Assembly: GCA_016185205.1 (NCBI GenBank)
Contig: JACPOA010000034.1
Location: forward strand, 124,001-188,000
Source of the DNA: Hyphomicrobiales bacterium
GTDB taxonomy: Bacteria; Pseudomonadota; Alphaproteobacteria; Rhizobiales; Xanthobacteraceae
Length of the DNA: 64,000 bases
Direction of reading: 5' to 3'
The notes below the pieces were generated by a model that saw nothing but the letters and a program-made list of their open reading frames with translations, ran no database searches and had not been told where the DNA came from. The position numbers were made by a program, and so were the translations under genes. Positions 521 through 26,365 of the stretch are shown piece after piece (position 1 is the stretch's first letter; the number at the start of each line of letters is the position of its first letter).

Positions 521-1812
521 TTTAGATTGAGGCGGATCGCCACCGAGCGCGCATGGGCGGCGAGCCCTTCGGCGGTCCCGAGCGCGATCGCGGCCGGCCC
601 CAGCGCGCGCAGCTGCTCGGGCCCGCATTTGAGTATCGAAGTGCGCTTCATGAAATCGAGTACGCCGAGGCCGGACGAGAAGCGCGCCGAACGCGACGTC
701 GGCAGCACGTGGTTGGAGCCGGCGACGTAGTCGCCGATGGCTTCCGGCGTATGCGCGCCGATGAAGATCGCGCCGGCATTGCGGATTTTTGCCGAGAGCG
801 CTTCGGCATCCTCAGTGGCGATCTCCAGATGCTCGGGCGCCAGCCGGTCGACCAGCGCGATTGCCGCGTCGAGCTTGGGCACCATGATGATGGCGCCGAA
901 ATCGCGCCACGACGCCGCCGCGACCGCGGCGCGCGGCAGCGTCTTGAGCTGGGATTCCACCGCCTTCTCGACCTCGGTTGCGAGCGCAGTGTCGTCGGTG
1001 ATCAGGATCGATTGCGCGCTGGCGTCATGCTCGGCCTGCGCCAAAAGATCGGCCGCGATCCAGTCGGGGTTGCCGGTCTTGTCGGCGAGAATGAGCACTT
1101 CGGACGGGCCGGCGATCATGTCGATGCCGACCTGGCCGAACACCAGCCGCTTGGCCGCCGCCACATAGGCGTTGCCGGGGCCGACGATCTTGGCGACGGC
1201 TGCGATGCTCTCGGTGCCATAGGCGAGCGCGGCCACCGCTTGCGCGCCGCCGATGCGATAGATCTCGTCGACGCCGGCGAGCTTGGCCGCCGCCAGCACC
1301 AGCGGCTCCAGTTTGCCGTCCGGCGTCGGCACCACCATCACCAGCCGCGCGCAGCCGGCGACCTTGGCCGGCACGGCGTTCATCAATACCGACGACGGAT
1401 AGGCCGCCGTGCCGCCCGGCACGTAAAGCCCTACGGCTTCGATCGCGGTCCAGCGCGAACCTAGTTCGACGCCGAGCGCGTCGGTGAAACGATCGTCGGC
1501 GGGCTTCTGGCGGGCGTGATAGGCCTCGATGCGGGTGCGCGCGAGCCTGAGCGCGGCCATCGCTTCGGCGCTGCAAAGCTTCTCCGCCGCGTCGATCTCG
1601 GCCGCGCTCACCCGCAGGCCGGTCTTGGAAAGATCGATGCGGTCGAACTTGGCGGTCAGCTCGAACAGTGCGCGGTCGCCGCCCGTCCTCACCGCGTCGA
1701 TGATGCCGCGCACGGTCGCTTCCACGTCCTGCGCCGCCTCGCGCTTGACGCCGAGGAAGGCGCTAAACCGCGTCGCGAAGTCGGCGCTTTGACTATCCAA
1801 TCGAAGGGGCAT
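517..1812 (-). CDS. hisD: Histidinol dehydrogenase
   Basis: HisD oxidises L-histidinol to L-histidine in two NAD-dependent steps with a bound zinc, the last reaction of histidine synthesis. The 431-residue protein has the family features: [18 protein letters not shown] near residue 130, the [12 protein letters not shown] nucleotide-binding stretch, [12 protein letters not shown], and the catalytic Glu-His pair in LAPEHLEI, followed by GSNHVLPT. The start MPLRLDSQ gives the usual family length; an in-frame upstream start would add 26 unconserved residues. It overlaps the UPF0262 gene by 4 bases, and DUF2948 lies upstream on the same strand after an intervening small gene. Confidence 0.97.
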
Positions 1813-1938
1813 GGCGTGGAATCTGATCCATTGTCGCTGAATCGAACCCCTACCTAGCATTTTTGCCCGCGCCGGCGCCCAAAAAAGCAAAGACTCCGTC
1901 GCGAGACGGAGCCTTGCCGAGAAACCGTGGTCGCCAGA

Positions 1939-2214
1939 TTACATCTTCATCTTACTCTTTTTATGATGGCGCATGTGCTTCTTGCCCATTTTATGATGGC
2001 GCATGTGCTTCATGCCCATTTTCGGCTCTTCCAAGACACACGGCAGGACGCAGACGCCGCCATTATGGAAGTTGCAGTGGGTGATGGTGGGCACACAGAC
2101 CGCGGGCGCGCCGATCTTGCCGCACAGACAGCCCACCGCAGCCTGGGCCGGTGTGCCGGTCGTTAGCAGCGCGGCGCCCAGCAGCAGCGCCGCTCCAATG
2201 ACGATTTTGCGCAT
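1939..2214 (-). CDS. Small secreted Cys-rich, His/Met/Lys-tailed protein
   Basis: A 91-residue protein with a clear Sec signal peptide (MRKIVIGAALLLGAALL, cleavage near AQA-AVG). The mature part has several cysteines (CLCGK, VCVP, HCNF, VCVLPC) and then a tail of His, Met and Lys built from a duplicated ten-residue unit ending HMRHH. The composition suggests metal binding or a cell-surface role, but no family is recognised. The start at the signal peptide is preferred over an upstream in-frame start. It lies between DUF2948 and hisD, where most relatives have no gene. Confidence 0.7.
   Translation of the reverse strand: MRKIVIGAALLLGAALLTTGTPAQAAVGCLCGKIGAPAVCVPTITHCNFHNGGVCVLPCVLEEPKMGMKHMRHHKMGKKHMRHHKKSKMKM
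1961..2020. repeat. 30-bp tandem direct repeat inside the small secreted protein gene
   Basis: Positions 1961-1990 and 1991-2020 are near-identical 30-bp units differing at one or two bases. The unit is a multiple of three and encodes the duplicated K-M-G-x-K-H-M-R-H-H segment, so the repeat changes tail length without a frameshift. Confidence 0.9.
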
Positions 2215-2360
2215 AGGTTCAATCCCTGTTGGAGAAAGCGGTTTCAGTACGCCACTGAAGTTCCACAATATCAAGCGAGGCGCGCCCTTAAGCGCCTGCG
2301 GCGCAAGGGTTCTGAACCGAAATCATTGTTGCGGTGCAGCTTGAGCCGGACCCGCAGCCG

Positions 2361-2831
2361 TCAGCGGCGGCCGGTTTTCGGCTGCCCTTCGTCGGCGAGG
2401 CTGTGGACCGGGCGGGCGGCGGTGACCCAGGTCGGTCCGAGATCGGCCAATTCGGCTTCCAGGCATTCGACCTCGAGCCGCAACTCCGCCCCGCCCGAAA
2501 AGACCAGGGTGACGACCCCGGAGGGCTCATCGGTTTCGGCAAACTCGACCGCCAGCAGGTTGAGCACCGCGTCCTTGCCGGCGGGGCTGATCTCCCGGCA
2601 TTTGCAGGACAGGACGCGCTCGAAGCGCAGGGCCGCGCGCCGGCGGCGGTATTCGGTACCGCCGTTTTGCGCGTTTTCCCAATCGAAACGGTTGACCGCG
2701 ACCACCACGCGCTTCTCTTGCGGTCGCCAATGAACGTCGGCGACCTTGACCACCGCATCCTGCAGGTGGGTCGAGACGACCTCGAGATCTTCCTCATCGA
2801 GGACGACGAATTTCAGCGGATCCATGGACAT
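2361..2831 (-). CDS. DUF2948 family protein
   Basis: A 156-residue protein of the DUF2948 family, with the expected N-terminus (MSMDPLKFVVLDEEDLEVVSTHLQDA) broken here by a second Met at residue 3, and the conserved strand segments KVADVHW and ALRFERVL. DUF2948 normally lies between murA and hisD in Alphaproteobacteria. Here murA is 3.9 kb away because two extra genes are inserted. No signal peptide, membrane segment or catalytic motif is visible. The function is unknown. Confidence 0.88.
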   Translation of the reverse strand: MSMDPLKFVVLDEEDLEVVSTHLQDAVVKVADVHWRPQEKRVVVAVNRFDWENAQNGGTEYRRRRAALRFERVLSCKCREISPAGKDAVLNLLAVEFAETDEPSGVVTLVFSGGAELRLEVECLEAELADLGPTWVTAARPVHSLADEGQPKTGRR

Positions 2832-2897
2832 AACTGCTCCCGGTCCATGGGTAGTTAGGCAAAGCCGCGCGCGCCTGCAAGGTGGTCTTTTTTATTG

Positions 2898-2984
2898 GCG
2901 CATGACCTTATCCGACCTCCTTCGCCCGCCAAAGCGGGCTTCGCGAAGGCGGGAAACCGGTACCCACTTTTCGGGATCATGCGC
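2898..2984 (+). repeat. REP-like palindrome, composite copy 1
   Basis: The outer element begins GCGCATGAC and ends CTTTTCGGGATCATGCGC. Compared with the simple copies it carries a 38-bp insertion (2916-2953), itself a GC-rich inverted repeat with CTTCGC and GCGAAG arms, placed between TCCGA and AAACCGGT. It lies between DUF2948 and the ModA-like gene. Confidence 0.9.
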
Positions 2985-3687
2985 TAAACGCCGGCTCCAG
3001 CCCGGCCGCCGTCCAGCGCGCGGCGCTGGCCGGATCGGTCAGCTTACGCAGCAGGGCGCGCGCACCCTCGGGCGCGGCGGCGCGGTTGAGAATGGCGGCG
3101 GTATAGCTATTAGCATTGTGCAACGCGCCCGGCAGCGGGCCGACCACCGTGACGCCCTTAACGGTCAGCGCCTCGCTGATGAAGGTAGTACCGATCTCGG
3201 CACGGCCGTCGGCGACCGCCTGCGCCACCTCGTAGCCGCGCTTGCCGAGCACGGCTTTGCTGTTGACCGCCTCGGCGATGCCGAGTTTTTGCAGCAACCC
3301 GGCGAAATAGGTGCCGGACGAACCGCCCGCCGCCGGATCGGAATAAGCGACGGTGCGCGCCTTGAGCAGCGCCTGCTTGAACGCTTCCGGCGTGGAGATG
3401 TCCGGCAGCGGAGCGCCCTCCTTCACCACCACGCCGGTGACGGTGCGGCCGAGTTCGGCGCGGCTGCCGGGCACGAACAGGCCGGTCTTTTCCAGCGCCT
3501 CGATTGCCGACGCCGACAGGATGGCCAGGTCGGCCGTCTCGCCGGCTTGCAACCGTTCGCGCAGCGCGCCGACCGTGTTGAAATTCAGGTTGAGCCGGTT
3601 GCCGGTCTCGCGTTCGAACTCGGCGCCGAGCGCCGTCACCATCGACTGCACGGCGCCGGCGCTCATGACTTTGATTCCTGCGGGCAC
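2977..3687 (-). CDS. ModA-like molybdate/oxyanion-binding protein without signal peptide
   Basis: A 236-residue type 2 periplasmic-binding-protein fold related to ModA: an SAGAVQ start strand, FNTVGALRERLQAGETADLAILS, and the second-lobe YSDPAAGGSSGTYF that usually contacts the anion. The GTG start at 3687 has a strong ribosome-binding site (AAGGGAG, 5 bases of spacer) and no hydrophobic leader follows. The protein is therefore predicted cytoplasmic, unlike transport ModA. No permease or ATPase gene is adjacent. It may be a sensor or binding protein, or a decayed transport component. Its 3' end overlaps the REP element. Confidence 0.75.
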   Translation of the reverse strand: MPAGIKVMSAGAVQSMVTALGAEFERETGNRLNLNFNTVGALRERLQAGETADLAILSASAIEALEKTGLFVPGSRAELGRTVTGVVVKEGAPLPDISTPEAFKQALLKARTVAYSDPAAGGSSGTYFAGLLQKLGIAEAVNSKAVLGKRGYEVAQAVADGRAEIGTTFISEALTVKGVTVVGPLPGALHNANSYTAAILNRAAAPEGARALLRKLTDPASAARWTAAGLEPAFSA

Positions 3688-3879
3688 GGCGACTCCCTTG
3701 TGTTGCCCAGTCGGGCGCGGATCGTGACCGGCCCGAGCGATCTCGTCCAGGCGCGGCGGAGGGACTGGTCGCCGCGGTGTTGCAGAATGGTCTTAAACTA
3801 CCGCTAGTTGTTTTCCCGTCGCACTCATTATAGGTTGTATTGGACTGAGGCCGAACTCAAAGCGCGGTTGGGGGGCATC

Positions 3880-6723
3880 ATGTTGATCGACAGTTATCAA
3901 ATCAAGCAGACTCAAAAGCGTTATACGGAGCGCACCGAACAGCGGGCACGCAACGAGCGGCTGATCAAGCTGAAACGCCCCCTCGAAGTCGACACACCGG
4001 AGCGCGTAGAGAAATTTCTCAAGCTGCGCGGACTTGCGGTCTCGATCGACGGCAAACCCACCATCGAAAACATGTCGAAGGTTATGGCCGGAGAAGTCGC
4101 CGGCCTCACCGCCGAGCTTGGGCTTGAGCGGCAGATCGGCAACAACGACCTGATGGGCATCGCATTCCTGGAAGAAGGGATTCGCGTCGCACGGACTGTC
4201 GCCCGTATCTGGGTCAGTGTCGTCAGCGGCCAGCCGCACGCCTACGGCACCGGCTTCCTGGTTTCGCCGCGCCTTCTGATCACGAACCATCATGTGCTCG
4301 GCGACCCTGCGACCGCCCGCAATTCGATTGCCGAATTCGATTATCAGCGGCGCAACGACGGCTCGCTGATTCAGTCCACATCTTTTGCGCTCGATCCCGA
4401 TACGTTCTTCTATGCGGATCAAGATTTGGATTATGCCTGCGTGGCCGTCAGACAGTCGTCGTCGACGGGCCGGCCGCTGGCGAATTACGGCTATAACCAC
4501 TTGTCGGAGGCGGAAGGCAAAGCGATTGCCGCGCAGTGGGCCAACATCATTCAGCATCCGAGCGGCGAGCCGAAACAGTTGAGCTTGCGCGAGAACCAGA
4601 TCGTCGACGTGCTTCCCCAATTCCTCCATTACAAGGCCGACACCGCGCCGGGCTCTTCGGGTTCTCCCGTTTACAACGACCGCTGGGAAGTGGTCGCCTT
4701 GCACCACTCCGGCGTCTACGAAAAGACTCCCGACGGTCGACCGGTCGCGCTCAACGGCCAGCCCTGGCAGGCGGGGATGGGCGAAGACCAGATCAAATGG
4801 ATATCGAACGAGGGCGTTCGTATCAGCCGCCTGATCGCGCATCTGCGCGGGCAATTAGAAACCGACGCGCACCGCGCCATGTTCGGTGAATTGCTCGCAG
4901 CGCCGCAGGAGGGCGTGCCCAATATCGACGGCCCGTCGAGAGGATCAGACACGGCTGCATCGCCAGCCCCCGCCGCCGACGGCTCCGTGACGTGGACGAT
5001 TCCTCTCACCGTGACGGTGAATGTCGGCGGGCGGACGGTCGCCGCACCGCTTATCGCTGCGACGCCGGCTGCCCGGCCACCGGCGGTTGGTGGCCCGTCT
5101 ATCCCGGCGGCGCCGCAAAGCGGCGACGGGCGAAGCCCCAACGAGGTTCTCAACGCGGCCAAGGCGGCATTGGGCCAGCGCAGCAACGTCATGAATGTGC
5201 GGCTGGGCTATGTTTTCAAGGATGGCAGAATCACCAAGGACCGCGCGCTGGTGGTGACGGTGCGCAAGAAACTGAGCAACGCCGACCTGCGAGCGACCAA
5301 CATCGAAGAACTTCCCGCCAGCTTCGGCGGCCTGAAGGTGGAAGTCAGCGATCCGACGATCGAAGAATTGATCCTGGCCGATCAAGGCTACGCCGCGCAC
5401 GAGGCGCTTGCGCTCAATATCGACGCGCTCGCTGCGGAAATCACTTACAAGCCGCCGGCTTCGCCCGGCCTCAACCGCGTCAAGGCTTCGATGACGGTCA
5501 ATGCCCATCTCAGCCCGGACGCCGGCTGGGCGCAATTATCGGCCTTCCTCGGCGACACCAAGAAAACGCTCACGGTCGGCATGTACGACTTCGGAGCCCG
5601 CCACATCGCCGATGCGATCAAGGAGGTCGGCGGCCTTCGTACCTTCAAGGATATGACGTTGACGCTGCAGCCTGGGCAGAGCGTCGGCTCCGGCACCAAA
5701 GCCAACGACCTGAAGGACAAGGAGGCGGTCGAAGAGCTGCAGGACGCGCTGGGCAACAAGTTCAAGATGGCCTGGATCAAGATCGGTTCGGTGAACGGTT
5801 GGGTGGCGAGTTCGTATCACATCAAGGTCGCCGTGCGCGACAAGTCGTCGTTCTGGCTGTCGAGCGGCAATTGGCAGTCGTCGAACCAGCCGCCGCCGCC
5901 GGCCAACCCGCTGGCCCGTCCATGGGACCGGTCATGGCTCTCGAAATATAATCGCGAGTGGCATGCCATCGTCGATCATCCCGGCTTGGCGGCCGACTTC
6001 GAAAAATACCTGCTGCACGATTTCAATAACAATACCGACGGCCCCGAAGAAGCGATGATCCTGCCCGATCTGCTGATGCCGGAAGAGATGTTCATGCCGA
6101 CGGCGATCGAGCGCGCGGCGCCGTTCAAATATTTCGAACCGTTAATCGAGACGCGCGTGTTCGACGTGCAGCCGCTGCTCACCCCGGACAATTTCCACGA
6201 ACACACGCTCGCGCTCATCAACAGCGCGCATGAGGAGTTGCTGATTCAGAATCAAACCTTCAACGCGCCCAAGCCCACGCATGCGAAACTCAAGGAGTTG
6301 CTGTCGGCCGTGCTCGACAAGCAGAGGGCCGGCGTCAACGTGCGTATCATCTTCCGGCTGCTGATGAAGGCCGACGCGCGCAAGAATTTGGAGGCGTTGC
6401 AGGACTTCGGCTTCGACATGAGCGCCATCCGCGTGCAAAAGAACTGCCACACCAAAGGCATGGTGGTCGACCGCAAACGGGTCATGCTGGGCAGCCAGAA
6501 CTGGTCGGAACAAGGCGTATCGCTCAACCGCGATGCCAGCCTGCTGTTTGAGGACGAGAAACTCGCCAAGTATTTCGCCGAAATTTTCGAGCACGATTGG
6601 CAAAATCTGGCGACCGACGATATCGGCTCGGCGCCGTCAGGAGTCGAACTCGCGACCGCCGACGGAGCGGCACCCGAGGGTACCGTCAAGCTGAGTGTCG
6701 AGGAGTACCTGGAGACGCTGTAA
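3880..6723 (+). CDS. Trypsin-like serine protease fused to a phospholipase D-like domain
   Basis: A 947-residue multidomain protein. Residues about 110-320 form a chymotrypsin/HtrA-like protease with a triad readable as His138 (TNHHV), Asp184 (DLDYA) and Ser260 (GSSGSP). Residues about 420-530 hold a small domain (RLGYVFKDGRITKDRALVVTV) like those next to Nal1-type peptidases. The C-terminal half carries two HKD motifs of the phospholipase D superfamily: H647-x-K649-x4-D654 with G663-N664, and H857-x-K859-x4-D864 with G871-S872-x-N874. Both active sites look intact. No signal peptide or membrane span is seen. The ATG at 3880 follows a GGGGGG ribosome-binding site; an upstream start at 3808 lacks one. 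The target is unknown; single-gene defence or stress roles are possible. Confidence 0.85.
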   Translation: MLIDSYQIKQTQKRYTERTEQRARNERLIKLKRPLEVDTPERVEKFLKLRGLAVSIDGKPTIENMSKVMAGEVAGLTAELGLERQIGNNDLMGIAFLEEGIRVARTVARIWVSVVSGQPHAYGTGFLVSPRLLITNHHVLGDPATARNSIAEFDYQRRNDGSLIQSTSFALDPDTFFYADQDLDYACVAVRQSSSTGRPLANYGYNHLSEAEGKAIAAQWANIIQHPSGEPKQLSLRENQIVDVLPQFLHYKADTAPGSSGSPVYNDRWEVVALHHSGVYEKTPDGRPVALNGQPWQAGMGEDQIKWISNEGVRISRLIAHLRGQLETDAHRAMFGELLAAPQEGVPNIDGPSRGSDTAASPAPAADGSVTWTIPLTVTVNVGGRTVAAPLIAATPAARPPAVGGPSIPAAPQSGDGRSPNEVLNAAKAALGQRSNVMNVRLGYVFKDGRITKDRALVVTVRKKLSNADLRATNIEELPASFGGLKVEVSDPTIEELILADQGYAAHEALALNIDALAAEITYKPPASPGLNRVKASMTVNAHLSPDAGWAQLSAFLGDTKKTLTVGMYDFGARHIADAIKEVGGLRTFKDMTLTLQPGQSVGSGTKANDLKDKEAVEELQDALGNKFKMAWIKIGSVNGWVASSYHIKVAVRDKSSFWLSSGNWQSSNQPPPPANPLARPWDRSWLSKYNREWHAIVDHPGLAADFEKYLLHDFNNNTDGPEEAMILPDLLMPEEMFMPTAIERAAPFKYFEPLIETRVFDVQPLLTPDNFHEHTLALINSAHEELLIQNQTFNAPKPTHAKLKELLSAVLDKQRAGVNVRIIFRLLMKADARKNLEALQDFGFDMSAIRVQKNCHTKGMVVDRKRVMLGSQNWSEQGVSLNRDASLLFEDEKLAKYFAEIFEHDWQNLATDDIGSAPSGVELATADGAAPEGTVKLSVEEYLETL

Positions 6724-21610: not shown

Positions 21611-22840
21611 ATGAATTACAATAGTTTCTTCGCGTCAGCCCTGGACACGCTTCGGGACGAGCGCCGTTACCGGGTTTTTGCCGATCTCGAACGCATCGCC
21701 GGGCGCTTTCCGCAGGCGATCTGGCATTCGCCGCAAGGCAAGCGCGAGGTCGTGATCTGGTGTTCCAACGATTATCTCGGCATGGCCCAGCACCCCAAGG
21801 TGATCGGCGCCATGGTCGACGTCGCCGCCCGCATGGGCACCGGCGCCGGGGGAACCCGCAACATCGCCGGCAACAACCATCCGCTGATCGAGCTGGAGCG
21901 CGAGCTCGCCGATCTGCACGGCAAGCCGGCCGCGCTGGTGTTCACCTCCGGCTATGTCTCGAACCAGACCGGCATCCCGACCATCGCCAAGCTGCTGCCC
22001 AATTGCCTGCTGCTGTCCGACGCGCTCAACCACAATTCCATGATCGAAGGCGTGCGCCAGTCCGGCTGCGAAAAGCTGATCTGGCGGCATAACGATGTCG
22101 GCCACCTGGAAGAGCTGCTGAAAGCCGCCGATCCGAAGCGGCCGAAGCTGATCATGTTCGAGAGCCTCTATTCCATGGATGGCGACGTGGCGCCGATGCA
22201 CGCGATCTGCGATTTGGCCGAGCGCTACGGCGCCATGACCTATGTCGACGAAGTGCACGCGGTCGGCATGTATGGCGCGCACGGCGGCGGCATCGGCGAC
22301 CGCGAAAACGCCATGCAGCGTCTCGACGTGATCGAGGGCACGCTGGCCAAGGCGTTCGGCTGTCTCGGCGGCTATATCGCGGGCAGCAAGGACCTGATCG
22401 ACGCGGTGCGCTCCTACGCGCCCGGTTTCATCTTCACCACTGCGCTGCCGCCGGCGATCTGCGCCGCCGCCACCGCCGCCATCCGCCACCTGAAGACCTC
22501 GCAATGGGAGCGCGAGCGGCATCAGGATCGCGCCGCGCGCGTCAAGGCGGTGCTCAATGCCGCCGGCCTGCCGGTGATGCCGAGCACCACGCATATCGTG
22601 CCGGTGCTGGTCGGCGATGCGGAGAAGTGCAAGGCAGCGGGCGACATGCTGCTGACCGAGCACGGCATCTATATCCAGCCGATCAACTATCCGACCGTGC
22701 CGCGCGGCGAGGAACGCCTGCGCATCACGCCGTCGCCCTATCACGACGACGTGCTGATCGACCGGCTGGCGGAAGCGCTGGTCGACGTGTGGGACCGGCT
22801 CGAACTGCCGACCCGCAAGCAGGCGATGGCGGCGGAGTAG
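21611..22840 (+). CDS. hemA: 5-aminolevulinate synthase
   Basis: HemA condenses glycine and succinyl-CoA to 5-aminolevulinate with PLP, the first step of heme (and, in phototrophs, bacteriochlorophyll) synthesis by the alphaproteobacterial C4 route. The 409-residue protein shows [35 protein letters not shown] and the PLP lysine Lys247 in GTLAKAFG. The start MNYNSFF is family-typical; longer in-frame starts overlap the regulatory boxes. It stands alone, downstream of FNR/FixK-type sites. Confidence 0.97.
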
Positions 22841-22893
22841 CTGTTACGGGCGCTAGCTCTAACGACCCTTATTGCCGTTTTGGGCATTTATTA

Positions 22894-22921
22894 AACCAAA
22901 AGGTATTTACAACCTTTGGTT
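22894..22921. promoter_or_regulatory. Imperfect inverted repeat upstream of the peptide/di-iron cassette
   Basis: AACCAAAAGGT (22894-22904) and AACCTTTGGTT (22911-22921) form an inverted repeat with one extra base in the left arm. It lies 50 bases before the 59-residue peptide gene, with TATAAC (22942-22947) downstream as a possible -10. It may be an operator. Nothing proves binding. Confidence 0.4.
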
Positions 22922-22969
22922 ATGTTTGTATATTGTGCACCTATAACAATTAAACAGGGAGACTTGCCA

Positions 22970-23149
22970 ATGCCAGCCATAGATAAGGCGAAGGGCGAAG
23001 AAGTCATCATCCACGTCCCGCCCGGCACATCCAAGCACGTCAAGATCGTCGAGACCGACCCCGCCCATCGCGGCCATGACATCATGATTCAAGTGAGCAA
23101 GGAACGAAAGACTCGCGTTTCGGATGCGGTCGGCGTCATCGTGAAATAG
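22970..23149 (+). CDS. 59-residue peptide, candidate RiPP precursor
   Basis: A short protein (MPAIDKAKGEEVIIHVPPGT at the start, ending SDAVGVIVK) with a GGGA ribosome-binding site 9 bases before the ATG. It has no signal peptide, membrane span or cysteine. The next gene begins 3 bases after its stop, so the two are translationally linked. Because both following proteins carry peptide-recognition-like domains, this may be their substrate. It could instead be an unrelated small regulator. The region is more AT-rich than its surroundings. Confidence 0.65.
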   Translation: MPAIDKAKGEEVIIHVPPGTSKHVKIVETDPAHRGHDIMIQVSKERKTRVSDAVGVIVK

Positions 23150-23152
23150 GTC

Positions 23153-24196
23153 GTGTCCGCGACTTCCTGTAGTTCAATTTTGAGCGATAGTGACGATAAC
23201 GCCAGCTCGACGCGGCCGGCGCTGCTTTTTCCGATTCAAATTGATCAAGAAAAGTCGAACCTTACGATTTCGACTTATGACAATGTGTTTCGATTTGACG
23301 GAATCCCCGGCCCGCAAGCAGCCGAAATCATCCGTCACATCAATTCTGGCTCTACGGTGGAGCAAATTTCAAATGCGGTGCAAGCCGACCGTACCATCGT
23401 CGACGCATTCATCAGAAGCCTGATCGATCAAGGTCTCGCCACGGAAGCTGAGCCGGAGGTCTATACCGGCGCACAATTCACAGCGACGCTACGATCCTTT
23501 TACGATCAGTGGAACGATCAGTTGTTTTCACACTCGCTCTGGCAATCTTTGTCGCTCGGGACGGCCAGCAGATCGATCGTGGACGGATGGTTGATCGAAA
23601 CATATCATTTTATACGCGGCGCTAATGCCCGCCTCCCTTATGCAATCGCGCATACTGCCGATCCGCGCGTGCGCAACATCTTCGCGCACCACTACCGCGA
23701 AGAGTACGACCACTACGGTTTCTTCGCCGAGGCACTGGTCAGGCGACAGATTTCACCAGAGCACGTCGAGCAGCTAGGGCCCTTGGTCGGCACACGCGCC
23801 GTGATCAATTGGACACGGAGGTGCGCACGCACGGACTCGCTCGCCTATGCTGCTTGTTCGGGCCTGTTGGAATCGACGGGCACCGATTCGGCACGAGCGC
23901 GGGCTTTCTACCGCACCGTCGCCACAAATTTCGATGCGGACCAAACCAATTTCATTGACCCATTAATGAAACATATCGATCTTGACGAAGGTTTCGAGCA
24001 CGGCAACGTGATGGCAGACATATTCAATCCGATCCCGCAATTGTCCGCTCAACGCGCCAATATGATCGTGCAAATGACCTACCAGTTTGTTGAGACGCTG
24101 ATGCAGTGGTTTTCCGACATCGAAATACATTATTTTCGCTTCCCGCATCAATCGAAACGAACCGTTCGAATCTATCGGAGCAATCCGGCGGATTGA
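23153..24196 (+). CDS. RRE-like winged helix fused to heme-oxygenase-like di-iron domain (protein A)
   Basis: A 347-residue protein. Residues about 27-100 read like a PqqD/RiPP-recognition-element fold: VFRFDG strand, a helix, SGSTVEQI, then IVDAFIRSLIDQGL. Residues about 105-330 form a heme-oxygenase-like (iron-containing redox enzyme) helical domain with likely metal ligands E149, HYREEYDH (H180, E184, H187) and H274-x3-D278-x4-H283. These positions recur in the next gene. The GTG start follows the peptide gene by 3 bases. It probably uses two irons and O2; substrate unknown. Codon usage is more AT-rich than in neighbours, suggesting transfer. Confidence 0.7.
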   Translation: MSATSCSSILSDSDDNASSTRPALLFPIQIDQEKSNLTISTYDNVFRFDGIPGPQAAEIIRHINSGSTVEQISNAVQADRTIVDAFIRSLIDQGLATEAEPEVYTGAQFTATLRSFYDQWNDQLFSHSLWQSLSLGTASRSIVDGWLIETYHFIRGANARLPYAIAHTADPRVRNIFAHHYREEYDHYGFFAEALVRRQISPEHVEQLGPLVGTRAVINWTRRCARTDSLAYAACSGLLESTGTDSARARAFYRTVATNFDADQTNFIDPLMKHIDLDEGFEHGNVMADIFNPIPQLSAQRANMIVQMTYQFVETLMQWFSDIEIHYFRFPHQSKRTVRIYRSNPAD

Positions 24197-24205
24197 GGGG
24201 CAGCT

Positions 24206-25204
24206 ATGCTTCTACTCCATCCCGACTGCAGCATTAAAGATGAAGGGGAGCGCTTCATCATCGAGGATCGCGTGATCAAGCTCACATATACGGGCGAGAG
24301 CGCGACACTGTGCAGGCAGGCGCTTCCGCTGCTGCCGTCTGCCCGCGACATCGACGACATCGTTGGCGGCACGTCCTATTCCATGGCGTCACTCAAACAA
24401 TTGGTCGCTGGCTTGGAATCGGAAGGCCTCGCGCTGGATTTGTCCCACGTGGAGGAACTCGACGACAACCTTCTTATTGAAAAGATTCGTACGGCCTCAC
24501 GCTTTTGGAATCAGCATATCATGGGACAAGTCTTCCCAAGTCGACTATTCGAAGGTCATGCGACCCGTCCTGAGGTGCTCGGCTGGGGCATCGAATTTTA
24601 TTTTTTCATACGCGCAGCCAATGAATACATGGCGCGTGGCGTGGCGCGCGACGATGCGCCCACCGAGGTTTTGGCAGAGGTCTGGAAACACTATGTCGAG
24701 GAATCGGGCCACGAAGAGATATTTTTAACGGGCTTGCTCGGATGCGGTCTCCGCCGGCAAGAAATTGTCGATCGCATGCCGCTTCCGTCCACAATGGCGC
24801 TTACGAACTTCCTGTACGAAAAAGCGTGCAGCACGATATTTGACTATCTTTCGGTCTTTGCACTGATGCAACCGCTCGCAACACCGCCTAGCCGATCGGA
24901 CATTAGCCAGCGTTACGATGCGCTCAGGAGTTGGTATCCATTTGCATCACCGCTGTTCAACGCGTTCGAACAGCACGACACCATTGATGCCGATCTGGCG
25001 CATGCAAAGCTCGCGATTGCTCCGGCGATTATTTGGCGCTCCCCTGCTTCGAAGCACGAGAGGCTGGCGATATTTCAGACCATTCGCGAGACGGCCGAAC
25101 ACTTTATCCTGTTTTTTGAAGGTATCCCTCGTTACTACAAAAACGAACGTTTCCTCAATTATCGTCAGCGTCCAACGGCGATCAACGCATCGTTCGTATC
25201 GTAA
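24206..25204 (+). CDS. RRE-like winged helix fused to heme-oxygenase-like di-iron domain (protein B)
   Basis: A 332-residue paralogue of the preceding protein. The N-terminal 80 residues again resemble a PqqD-like recognition domain (RFIIEDRVIKLTYTG, helices, LKQLVAGLESEGLALDL). The C-terminal domain repeats the ligand pattern: E130 in EFYFFIRAANE, HYVEESGH (H162, E166, H169), and H257-x3-D261-x4-H266. The two proteins are divergent overall, so they may form a heterodimer or catalyse successive steps. It starts 9 bases after gene A. No known RiPP enzyme neighbours (YcaO, radical SAM, peptidase, exporter) are present. Confidence 0.7.
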   Translation: MLLLHPDCSIKDEGERFIIEDRVIKLTYTGESATLCRQALPLLPSARDIDDIVGGTSYSMASLKQLVAGLESEGLALDLSHVEELDDNLLIEKIRTASRFWNQHIMGQVFPSRLFEGHATRPEVLGWGIEFYFFIRAANEYMARGVARDDAPTEVLAEVWKHYVEESGHEEIFLTGLLGCGLRRQEIVDRMPLPSTMALTNFLYEKACSTIFDYLSVFALMQPLATPPSRSDISQRYDALRSWYPFASPLFNAFEQHDTIDADLAHAKLAIAPAIIWRSPASKHERLAIFQTIRETAEHFILFFEGIPRYYKNERFLNYRQRPTAINASFVS

Positions 25205-25233
25205 GCGCTGGCGGCGGCATAGCCTTTACAATT

Positions 25234-25281
25234 GCGCATAATCTTGTCCGAAACCGGTTTCCACTTTTCGGGATTATGCGC
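25234..25281 (+). repeat. REP-like palindrome, copy 3
   Basis: Starts GCGCATAATC and ends GATTATGCGC, with TCCGAAACCGGTTTCC in the middle. The paired base changes at both ends (AATC/GATT) keep the stem, evidence that the hairpin is selected or was homogenised. It lies in a convergent gap after the di-iron cassette. Confidence 0.92.
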
Positions 25282-25282
25282 G

Positions 25283-26365
25283 CTAATCCTGAAACGGCGG
25301 CGGCGGACGCAGCGGCTTGCCGGCGTCGTCCGGCGGCTTAAGCCGACGCGCGGCGTGGCGCGCCACGAACGGCATACTCAACAGCACAAAAAAGATGCGC
25401 GTGAGATGGTGCGCGCCGACATAGACCGGGTCGAGATGCAGCGCGAGCGCGAGCAGCATCATGGCGTCGACCGCGCCGGGCGCATAGGCGATTATCACCT
25501 CGGCGACAGGGAGCGACAGCAGGCTGACCAGCCCGGCCGCGAATATCGCCGCGATGGTCACCGCGACCGCGAATGAGCCGAATGCGGCGCCGACGTAATG
25601 CAGCAATAGTCGCAACGGCGTATTGGCGAAGCGCGAGCCGGTCACCGCGCCGAAGGCGATCATGACCGTGTAGGTCACCCACCACGGCATCGCCACTTGA
25701 ATGAGTCCGCTGCCGTGCAACACGGCCGAGGTGACCATGGCGCCGAAGATCAGCCCGCCGGGAAACCTTATGCGAAACGCGATGAACGCGACGGCGCTGG
25801 AGGCGACAATGAGAATGGCGAGTTCGCCGATCGGAAATGGGCCGAGCGTCGCGGCGGCGCTAGGAGTGATATGCCCGACCAGGCCGAGCATCGCGAGCGC
25901 TGCCGGCAGCCCGACCGCGATGATCACCACGCGAATACTCTGCACGATTGCGATGGCGCGCACGTCGGCGTCGATTTCGACGGCAATCGCCATCACCTGC
26001 GACAGCCCGCCCGGCACGGCGGCAAGATAGGCCGTCGCCGTGTCCCAGCCGTGCACGGTGCGCAAATAGGCGGTGCCGCCCAGACTGATGCAGACGATTG
26101 CGAGAATCAGCACGCCGAGGCTCAGCGGATAGGTCGCCATGCCGTGCAGCGTCTGCGGCGTCACCACCGAGCCGAGCGAAATGCCGATCAGCACCAGCAG
26201 AATGCGCATCATCGCCGTCGGAATCAGCATCGGCCGGCCGGCCAGCGCGGCGCCGGCAACCGCCAGGATCGAGCCGGACAGAAAGCCGGCGGGCATCCCC
26301 AGGAGGCCGAGCGTGAGGCCACCGGCGACGGCGAATGCCAGCGTTTCCGCTACGTGGCGGAACAT
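25283..26365 (-). CDS. AbrB-family membrane protein
   Basis: A 360-residue integral membrane protein with about ten helices, matching the AbrB/ammonia-monooxygenase-like membrane family (two repeats, each with LLVLIGISLGSVVTPQ or GAVTGSRFA-type turns, and YLAAVPGGLSQVM / YAPGAVDAMMLLAL). Members are poorly characterised, though some have been linked to transport. The ATG at 26365 is chosen; a TTG at 26398 and a GTG between them are in frame. Despite the name it is not the AbrB transcription factor. Confidence 0.8.
   Translation of the reverse strand: MFRHVAETLAFAVAGGLTLGLLGMPAGFLSGSILAVAGAALAGRPMLIPTAMMRILLVLIGISLGSVVTPQTLHGMATYPLSLGVLILAIVCISLGGTAYLRTVHGWDTATAYLAAVPGGLSQVMAIAVEIDADVRAIAIVQSIRVVIIAVGLPAALAMLGLVGHITPSAAATLGPFPIGELAILIVASSAVAFIAFRIRFPGGLIFGAMVTSAVLHGSGLIQVAMPWWVTYTVMIAFGAVTGSRFANTPLRLLLHYVGAAFGSFAVAVTIAAIFAAGLVSLLSLPVAEVIIAYAPGAVDAMMLLALALHLDPVYVGAHHLTRIFFVLLSMPFVARHAARRLKPPDDAGKPLRPPPPFQD

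Follow-up and report, generated by a model that had tools for sequence, protein, structure and literature searches.

A peptide gene and two fusions of RRE-like and heme-oxygenase-like oxidase domains as a probable minimal RiPP-type cassette in a Hyphomicrobiales bacterium

Three adjacent genes in a 64,000-nucleotide stretch of DNA from a Hyphomicrobiales bacterium (the window; contig JACPOA010000034.1) encode a 59-residue peptide and two larger proteins, HDO1 and HDO2, each of which begins with a domain like the recognition element (RRE) of ribosomally synthesized and post-translationally modified peptide (RiPP) systems and continues into a heme-oxygenase-like dimetal oxidase (HDO) domain. The trio lies between hemA and a gene for an AbrB-type membrane protein, and several described systems share parts of its design. 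In pyrroloquinoline quinone biosynthesis (PqqA, PqqD, and PqqC), a ribosomal peptide, a PqqD-type domain, and an enzyme of the heme-oxygenase fold likewise occur together, but PqqC uses no metal, and in the natural fusion the D part follows the C part, whereas the window proteins carry the RRE before the HDO domain. An RRE on a modifying enzyme is also seen in LynD, TruD, ThcOx, and MccB, whose catalytic domains are of the YcaO, flavin, or ThiF types and not HDOs. The pearlin, or 3-thiaglutamate, system (TglA and its partners, among which TglH belongs to the MNIO family) offers a further possible likeness, a peptide scaffold on which an amino-acid product is made; as described in the accessible parts of the reports, however, the modified residue is added there by a tRNA-dependent ligase. 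No gene for such a peptide aminoacyl-tRNA ligase, the mark of a pearlin pathway, was seen at the window trio between hemA and the AbrB-type gene.

Heme-oxygenase-like proteins are found in two other systems. VarO of the thiovarsolin pathway (PMC6511847) is encoded in a RiPP cluster, and its deletion removes a dehydrogenation; the pathway differs in being of the YcaO-TfuA kind with a repeating precursor, and the accessible part of that report mentions neither an RRE fusion nor a pair of HDOs. The window block holds no thiovarsolin-type YcaO-TfuA pair, since it consists of the trio alone with 5-aminolevulinate synthase and AbrB-type genes as its flanks. VarO was the sole heme-oxygenase-like RiPP protein met in the open-access literature, as far as the texts were accessible, and six HDO-related terms are absent from the accessible text of a paper on RRE structures (PMC12710340). 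MboA, the HDO acetylenase of mangotoxin biosynthesis (PDB 9ypi; PMC13185094), resembles HDO1 in its six ligand positions and in the H-x3-D-x4-H spacing, and its target is the C-terminal residue of a peptide, bound to iron through its carboxylate, as is proposed here for the trio. It differs in having no RRE ahead of its HDO domain (the match to its 250-residue chain starts at residue 25) and, according to the accessible part of its description (PMC13185094), in that its substrate is a tripeptide made by ATP-grasp ligases rather than by the ribosome and that it has a redox partner, MboB. No description of an RRE–HDO fusion was found in the open-access literature, which lacks most subscription journals, and one may already be in print; the texts consulted include a review of HDOs (PMC13108848) and a preprint on nitrilobacillin (PMC13060819).

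The assignment of the window trio to the RiPP-type cassettes is well supported by computation, and it is probable that the trio is a minimal cassette of this kind, in which an RRE-held peptide is oxidized at its C-terminal end by the HDOs. The peptide gene (P0001; 22970–23149, forward strand), the candidate precursor, is an open reading frame (ORF) of 59 codons that starts with ATG and ends ...DAVGVIVK. It is followed on the same strand, after a gap of 3 bp, by HDO1 (P0002; 23153–24196; 347 residues, GTG start) and, after a further 9 bp, by HDO2 (P0003; 24206–25204; 332 residues, ATG start). The gene upstream is the 5-aminolevulinate synthase gene hemA (TIGR01821, 8.9e-203), and the AbrB-type gene downstream lies on the opposite strand. 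The tight linkage of three genes after hemA agrees with the original prediction.

An N-terminal winged helix of the PqqD or RRE kind had been predicted for both large proteins, to be checked by structure prediction and profile comparison. In HDO1, the domain covers residues 20–103 (23210–23461, forward strand) and was modeled with AlphaFold2, giving a chain of four strands, three helices, and a last strand with a predicted local distance difference test score (pLDDT) of 91.0. The first 17 Foldseek matches of this model in the PDB are chains of eight proteins or complexes (TbiB1, ThcOx, McbBCD, PqqD, PbtF, TigE, TbtB, and MccB), the best with an E-value of 2.3e-3 and a probability of 1.00. All of them, TigE included, are RRE-bearing or PqqD proteins; two TbiB1 entries were, judging by their titles, solved with a leader peptide, and the RREs rank above other winged helices. 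A profile of 39 N-terminal sequences of the family aligned by hhalign with eight PqqD-family proteins (8 of the 10 PF05402 matches, taken into alignment A8) with an E-value of 1.9e-6 and a probability of 89.6. Against 177,635 distinct PDB sequences, the same profile placed LynD (1.9e-4), PbtF (1.3e-3), and TruD (1.5e-3) at the top, with MusD (5.6e-3), PaaA (0.09), TfuB1 (0.13), and the PqqD part of PqqCD (0.49) lower in the list. By fold and by profile, then, the N terminus of HDO1 looks like an RRE and is predicted to bind a peptide, and that of HDO2 appears RRE-like through its membership in the family profile; both proposed checks point the same way.

The second part of each protein was also found to be as predicted. 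P0002 matched the Pfam families TENA_THI-4 and Haem_oxygenas_2 with an E-value of 8.9e-9 each, above both cut-offs, and the first 20 Foldseek matches of its full-length model (pLDDT 88.1) include CADD (top), PqqC, 3dde, TenA homologues, and UndA. The alignment used for AlphaFold omits five rows (two from L006, one from L008, and two from L009). P0003 matched Haem_oxygenas_2 below the cut-off (1.5e-5) and 3dde by phmmer (7.8e-8). The place of CADD at the head of the Foldseek list could be taken to mean that the HDO, like CADD, sacrifices residues of its own to release a small product and that the peptide is incidental, but this is highly improbable, because the family profile, whose best solved relatives are 3dde (1.1e-12) and MboA (2.3e-10), favors MboA over CADD (1.3e-5), and because the peptide is conserved together with the enzymes.

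As stated in the accessible text of PMC13185094, MboA has the ligands Glu86, His89, Glu143, His172, Asp176, and His181, and its substrate binds Fe1 through the C-terminal carboxylate. With the numbering offset taken from the profile alignment, these ligand positions correspond to E184, H187, E240, H274, D278, and H283 of P0002, the full set, and to E166, H169, Q222, H257, D261, and H266 of P0003, in which five of six are kept. Of the ligand pattern first proposed for the two proteins, the H-Y-x-E-E-x-x-H and H-x3-D-x4-H motifs are present in both, but Glu149/Glu130, although a conserved Glu, aligns with no ligand given for MboA and has to be replaced by Glu240/Gln222, the pair that aligns with Glu143 of MboA. 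Because this position is Glu in P0002 and Gln in P0003, the two enzymes are not equivalent. Four other second-type proteins of window-like clusters share the Glu-to-Gln change: HDO2 and a third HDO of the related genome G1303, and the second half of each fused pair in G035 and G719. The Glu is kept in the first-type and single HDOs of window-like clusters and in the second HDOs of a subfamily whose peptides end in HL. These residues were tabulated for 48 of 132 HDO-like ORFs, many of which overlap or repeat. The first HDOs of three cyanobacterial loci (L042:3882–4928, L043:356–1441, and L044:5884–6969) have five of the six positions changed and keep only Glu184; judging from these residues, they are likely pseudoenzyme partners. 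In a tree built by a quick method without G1303, P0002 and P0003 sit on long branches, and no weight is placed on their position there.

To find relatives of the trio, 323 genomes of the same taxonomic family were searched with an HDO profile (A4) at 1e-12, which returned three matches: the window's own genome, G035, and G1303. G1303 belongs to another genus and carries a 60-residue peptide, HDO1, and HDO2 in the gene order of the window. The two peptides share 40% identity, a C-terminal GVIVK, and a VPxGT...HV stretch in their N-terminal part, and none of 20,000 shuffles reached their alignment score of 91. Among eleven proteins compared, on which the one-to-one pairing of the HDOs rests, HDO1 of G1303 was the best match of P0002 (37.9% identity, 2e-59) and HDO2 that of P0003 (32.4%, 3e-41), with E-values computed for a set database size of 1,000,000. 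Conservation of the peptide beside these enzymes, on which the first account of the locus had hung, was therefore observed in this second trio. A gene for a RiPP-maturation radical SAM C-methyltransferase (TIGR03975, 7.6e-195; 648.9 bits against a cut-off of 281.85) lies 273 bp upstream of the G1303 trio, a class III aminotransferase gene follows, and the third HDO is encoded on the other strand. The radical SAM gene, at L096:4137–6122, is of the B12 type. Among seven other peptides tried, the window peptide showed a suggestive resemblance in sequence to those of Rhizobium etli and Burkholderia that end in MCG (score reached by 16 and 110 of 5000 shuffles, respectively); for the other five, 522 to 5000 of 5000 shuffles did so.

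Peptide ORFs also accompany more distant members of the family. G035 and G719 encode double HDOs of 626/628 residues with a peptide of 51–52 residues just upstream that ends TKKLRAAIVE. Single HDOs in G447, G913, and G1082 are accompanied by peptides of 20–22 residues, all three ending GATCG, that of R. etli p42f by a 67-residue peptide ending MCG, and the second HDO of two Burkholderia loci by a divergently encoded 68-residue peptide also ending MCG. This second, single RRE–HDO of Burkholderia and its peptide (L026:3845–4939 and 5199–5405) stand beside a cluster of the HL type. A scan of genome_contigs that took the first HDOs from Robbsia, Tistrella, and Rhodococcus as queries gave 36 loci. 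In 33 of them a peptide ORF ending HL lies upstream, at a distance of up to 1 kb in 32 and of 1.9 kb, with a gene between, in Tistrella. The three remaining, cyanobacterial loci have a peptide ORF, picked by eye, that ends [VI]L and lies ∼0.14 to 0.76 kb upstream. Two of these three cyanobacterial peptides contain a leader-like stretch ending QGG (a GG site), and the third is cut by the contig end. In 32 of the 36 loci, the kilobase upstream held an HL ORF on the same strand, against 1 locus for the opposite strand and none in shuffles or downstream. The HL motif had been picked with the peptides already in view, short contigs were scored 0 downstream, and loci of near relatives are not independent. 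Such peptides are also carried by the Robbsia and Rhodococcus plasmids. In seven of eight pairs, the peptide codons gave nonsynonymous rates (dN) of 0.04–0.39 against synonymous rates (dS) of 0.23–2.1, and the eighth gave no dS. Many Pseudomonadota, a Rhodococcus plasmid, and cyanobacteria carry tandem RRE–HDO pairs with a peptide, and the window pair is therefore not unique. The original prediction knew of no described RiPP system with two such fusions, and no description was found in the open-access literature. Many loci of the HL subfamily also encode a third, longer HDO-like protein of ∼470–530 residues after the pair (e.g. L006:13837–15324 and L007:11944–13539).

A working scheme can be outlined from these comparisons. 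The 59-residue peptide would be the ribosomal precursor, and the RRE of each large protein would hold its N-terminal part, including the VPxGT...HV stretch, and so bring the C-terminal end (...GVIVK) into the HDO domain. HDO1 would activate O2 at a dimetal center and oxidize the C-terminal residue or its neighbors, desaturation or hydroxylation being the simplest reactions, and iron would hold the peptide's terminal carboxylate as it does in MboA. HDO2, with Gln for one ligand Glu, may catalyze a second step at an altered metal site or serve as a partner subunit that is not equivalent to HDO1. Oxidation is placed at the C-terminal end because of the MboA precedent and because the peptide C termini are conserved within subfamilies. 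We infer the bound peptide, the metal, and the site and kind of modification from such likenesses, and the product could be either the modified peptide or a released unusual amino acid.

Several observations weigh against this scheme. The RRE model had no PDB match at an E-value of ≤0.001 among 1097 Foldseek matches, winged helices of other kinds also appear in the PDB profile list, and the Pfam PqqD model PF05402 matched neither P0002 nor P0003 at E-values up to 1. PF05402 is likewise absent from the 25 of 53 Pfam families listed for 47 members of the family; it is reported, in the accessible part of PMC7470986, to retrieve RREs incompletely. The set of three His and three carboxylates, complete in HDO1, is incomplete in HDO2 (Q222 for Glu), and in the HL subfamily Asn replaces the ligand Asp. 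Beside the third HDO of G1303 and a partial HDO in L030, no peptide gene was found. The peptide C termini differ between subfamilies (K, E, G, and L), and a single chemistry is therefore unlikely. Lastly, no peptidase, exporter, or radical SAM gene was found between hemA and the AbrB-type gene, and the host genome has 0 matches to TIGR03975. Peptidase and exporter genes are not a universal feature near RiPP cassettes.

It could also be supposed that the HDOs act on a free metabolite and that the winged helix binds the peptide as a small protein with a regulatory or chaperone-like role, as might be read from weak Pfam matches to winged helices of regulators, such as TrmB and MarR, in a few of the 47 members. 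This is improbable, if clearly less so than the CADD-like route, because the closest folds are RREs, including the two TbiB1 entries that by title contain a leader peptide, ahead of other winged helices, leader-like stretches with a GG site occur in two cyanobacterial peptides, the G1303 trio lies near a RiPP radical SAM gene, and the peptide C termini are conserved.

Some peptides of relatives are only 20–27 residues long, with the C terminus as their most conserved part, which is compatible with the peptide being a carrier only, as in the pearlins: its C-terminal residue would be oxidized and cut off to release an unusual amino acid. This special case of the RRE-guided oxidation described above is a serious possibility, although we lean somewhat against it. 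The carrier logic is known from PMC9303977 and PMC9016710, as far as their accessible parts go, and genes of small-molecule type occur near the relatives. In a Pfam scan of ten neighbor proteins, one of which had no match, L036 was found to encode a class III aminotransferase, an ATP-grasp enzyme with a below-cut-off match to the C-terminal domain of L-amino acid ligase, and an MFS protein; L006 a class III aminotransferase, an EamA protein, and a GNAT protein; L009 a GNAT protein; L065 a TauE protein; and L069 a class V aminotransferase, to which the class III aminotransferase of G1303 can be added. These assignments suggest small-molecule products in the relatives. On the other hand, neither a residue-adding ligase nor a matching peptidase was seen in the neighborhoods examined, and the window trio has no accessory gene of this sort between its two flanking genes, where aminotransferase, ATP-grasp, MFS, EamA, GNAT, and TauE genes are all missing. 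The HL loci of Pseudomonas, Chimaeribacter, and Photorhabdus (L036:9333–12904, and L035, L037, and L038 by blastp clusters) have an aminotransferase, an ATP-grasp enzyme, and an MFS exporter added, with Pfam assignment of these accessory genes made for L036 only; a gene set of this kind would fit a small peptide as the product. Judging from the hosts, a known compound such as rhizobitoxine came into consideration, but no evidence supported it and the idea was abandoned.

Whereas 12–98 nt separate hemA from the AbrB-type gene in six of seven relatives, the distance in the window is ∼2.4 kb, which makes the trio look inserted. Of nine relatives of the same genus, eight have hemA at the cut-off (not G1126), eight the AbrB-type gene (not G1113), and seven both; the two matches are convergent, at the distance given, in G1098, G1105, G1110, G1121, G1124, and G1128, and in G1127 they are separated by ∼1 kb of other cargo. 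A role for hemA in the system was considered and rejected, since relatives that lack the trio also have hemA beside the AbrB-type gene. The 3′ end of hemA resembles an insertion hotspot, as G1127 and the window both carry inserts there; the G1127 insert (L089, G1127:C30:42200–43800) is followed, by eye, by a near-copy of the hemA 3′ end, and no integrase was seen in either insert. The AT-richer composition first noted for the block was confirmed (22841–25204; 53.1% GC, compared with 63.9% for the window as a whole and with 65.7% and 66.8% for the flanking hemA and AbrB-type genes, respectively), as was its closure by a repetitive palindrome: the repeat at 25247–25271, located by a repeat search of the genome, is one of 93 genomic matches with ≤3 mismatches, and a control pattern gave 0. 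The right border of the block carries an imperfect copy (25205–25222; 15 of 18 bases) of the hemA 3′ end (22823–22840), with a score equaled by 1 of 1000 single-base shuffles of the flank. In the AT-rich gap 5′ of the peptide gene, a sigma-70-like promoter is suggested by its match to consensus (TTTACA-17-TATATT, 22906–22934, forward strand; 10 of 12 consensus positions); the consensus scan gave 5 promoter-like sites in 22780–25320 against a mean of 1.8 in shuffles. A ribosome-binding site, AGGGAG (22956–22961, forward strand), can be read in the sequence 8 nt 5′ of the peptide ATG.

Insertion also bears on whether the window trio is a partial or decaying piece of a larger transferred cluster, its product no longer made. 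This is rather unlikely, although not as improbable as action on a free metabolite. In favor of such decay, the radical SAM, aminotransferase, and third HDO genes of G1303 have no counterpart between hemA and the AbrB-type gene, the window's own genome gives no TIGR03975 match, the insertion is AT-richer where hemA and the AbrB-type gene otherwise lie within ∼100 nt in six of seven relatives, and among 40 genomes of the genus only the window's own contains the trio. Yet the three ORFs are open, the ligand residues are retained, and the trio has both a ribosome-binding site and a promoter-like site; moreover, L064, a contig of 6.3 kb read by eye, encodes a peptide and a fused pair but no obvious additional biosynthetic gene.

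P0002 alone matched 2 of 397 genomes of the order at 1e-10, and P0003 alone 1 of 397 at 1e-6. At 1e-12, profile A4 matched 4 of 398 genomes of the phylum and 10 of 385 of the class; of these ten, four reached E-values of ≤2.6e-37, and the other six (three of them Tistrella-type double HDOs of 691 residues) ranged from 2e-18 to 6e-13. The draws of genomes for order, class, and phylum overlap, and their counts are not additive. P0002 alone found 16 stretches in genome_contigs, none of which was confirmed, neither profile A4 nor the second Burkholderia HDO had a match in viral_contigs, and tblastn of HDO2, the G719 double HDO, and the window peptide gave no match in plasmids. Relatives were reached through plasmids (four records) and by profile or alignment searches.

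A broader proposal, which we put forward tentatively, is that RRE–HDOs constitute a new RiPP class across Pseudomonadota, Actinomycetota, and Cyanobacteriota, in which paired HDOs with unequal sites (a complete site beside one in which Gln replaces Glu, or, as in the three cyanobacterial loci, a site altered at five of the six positions) would form a heteromeric enzyme acting on the C-terminal residue of a scaffold peptide to build oxidized amino acids, with the window trio as the minimal form. HDO chemistries include desaturation and the formation of alkynes, nitriles, and azetidines, according to the accessible parts of PMC13185094 and PMC13108848. Fusion of an RRE to a dimetal oxidase would thus bring an enzyme family of many chemistries to the modification of ribosomal peptides, with a self-contained recognition tag, and the peptide families ending HL, GATCG, MCG, IVE, or IVK hint at the site of reaction and allow a direct test by co-expression.

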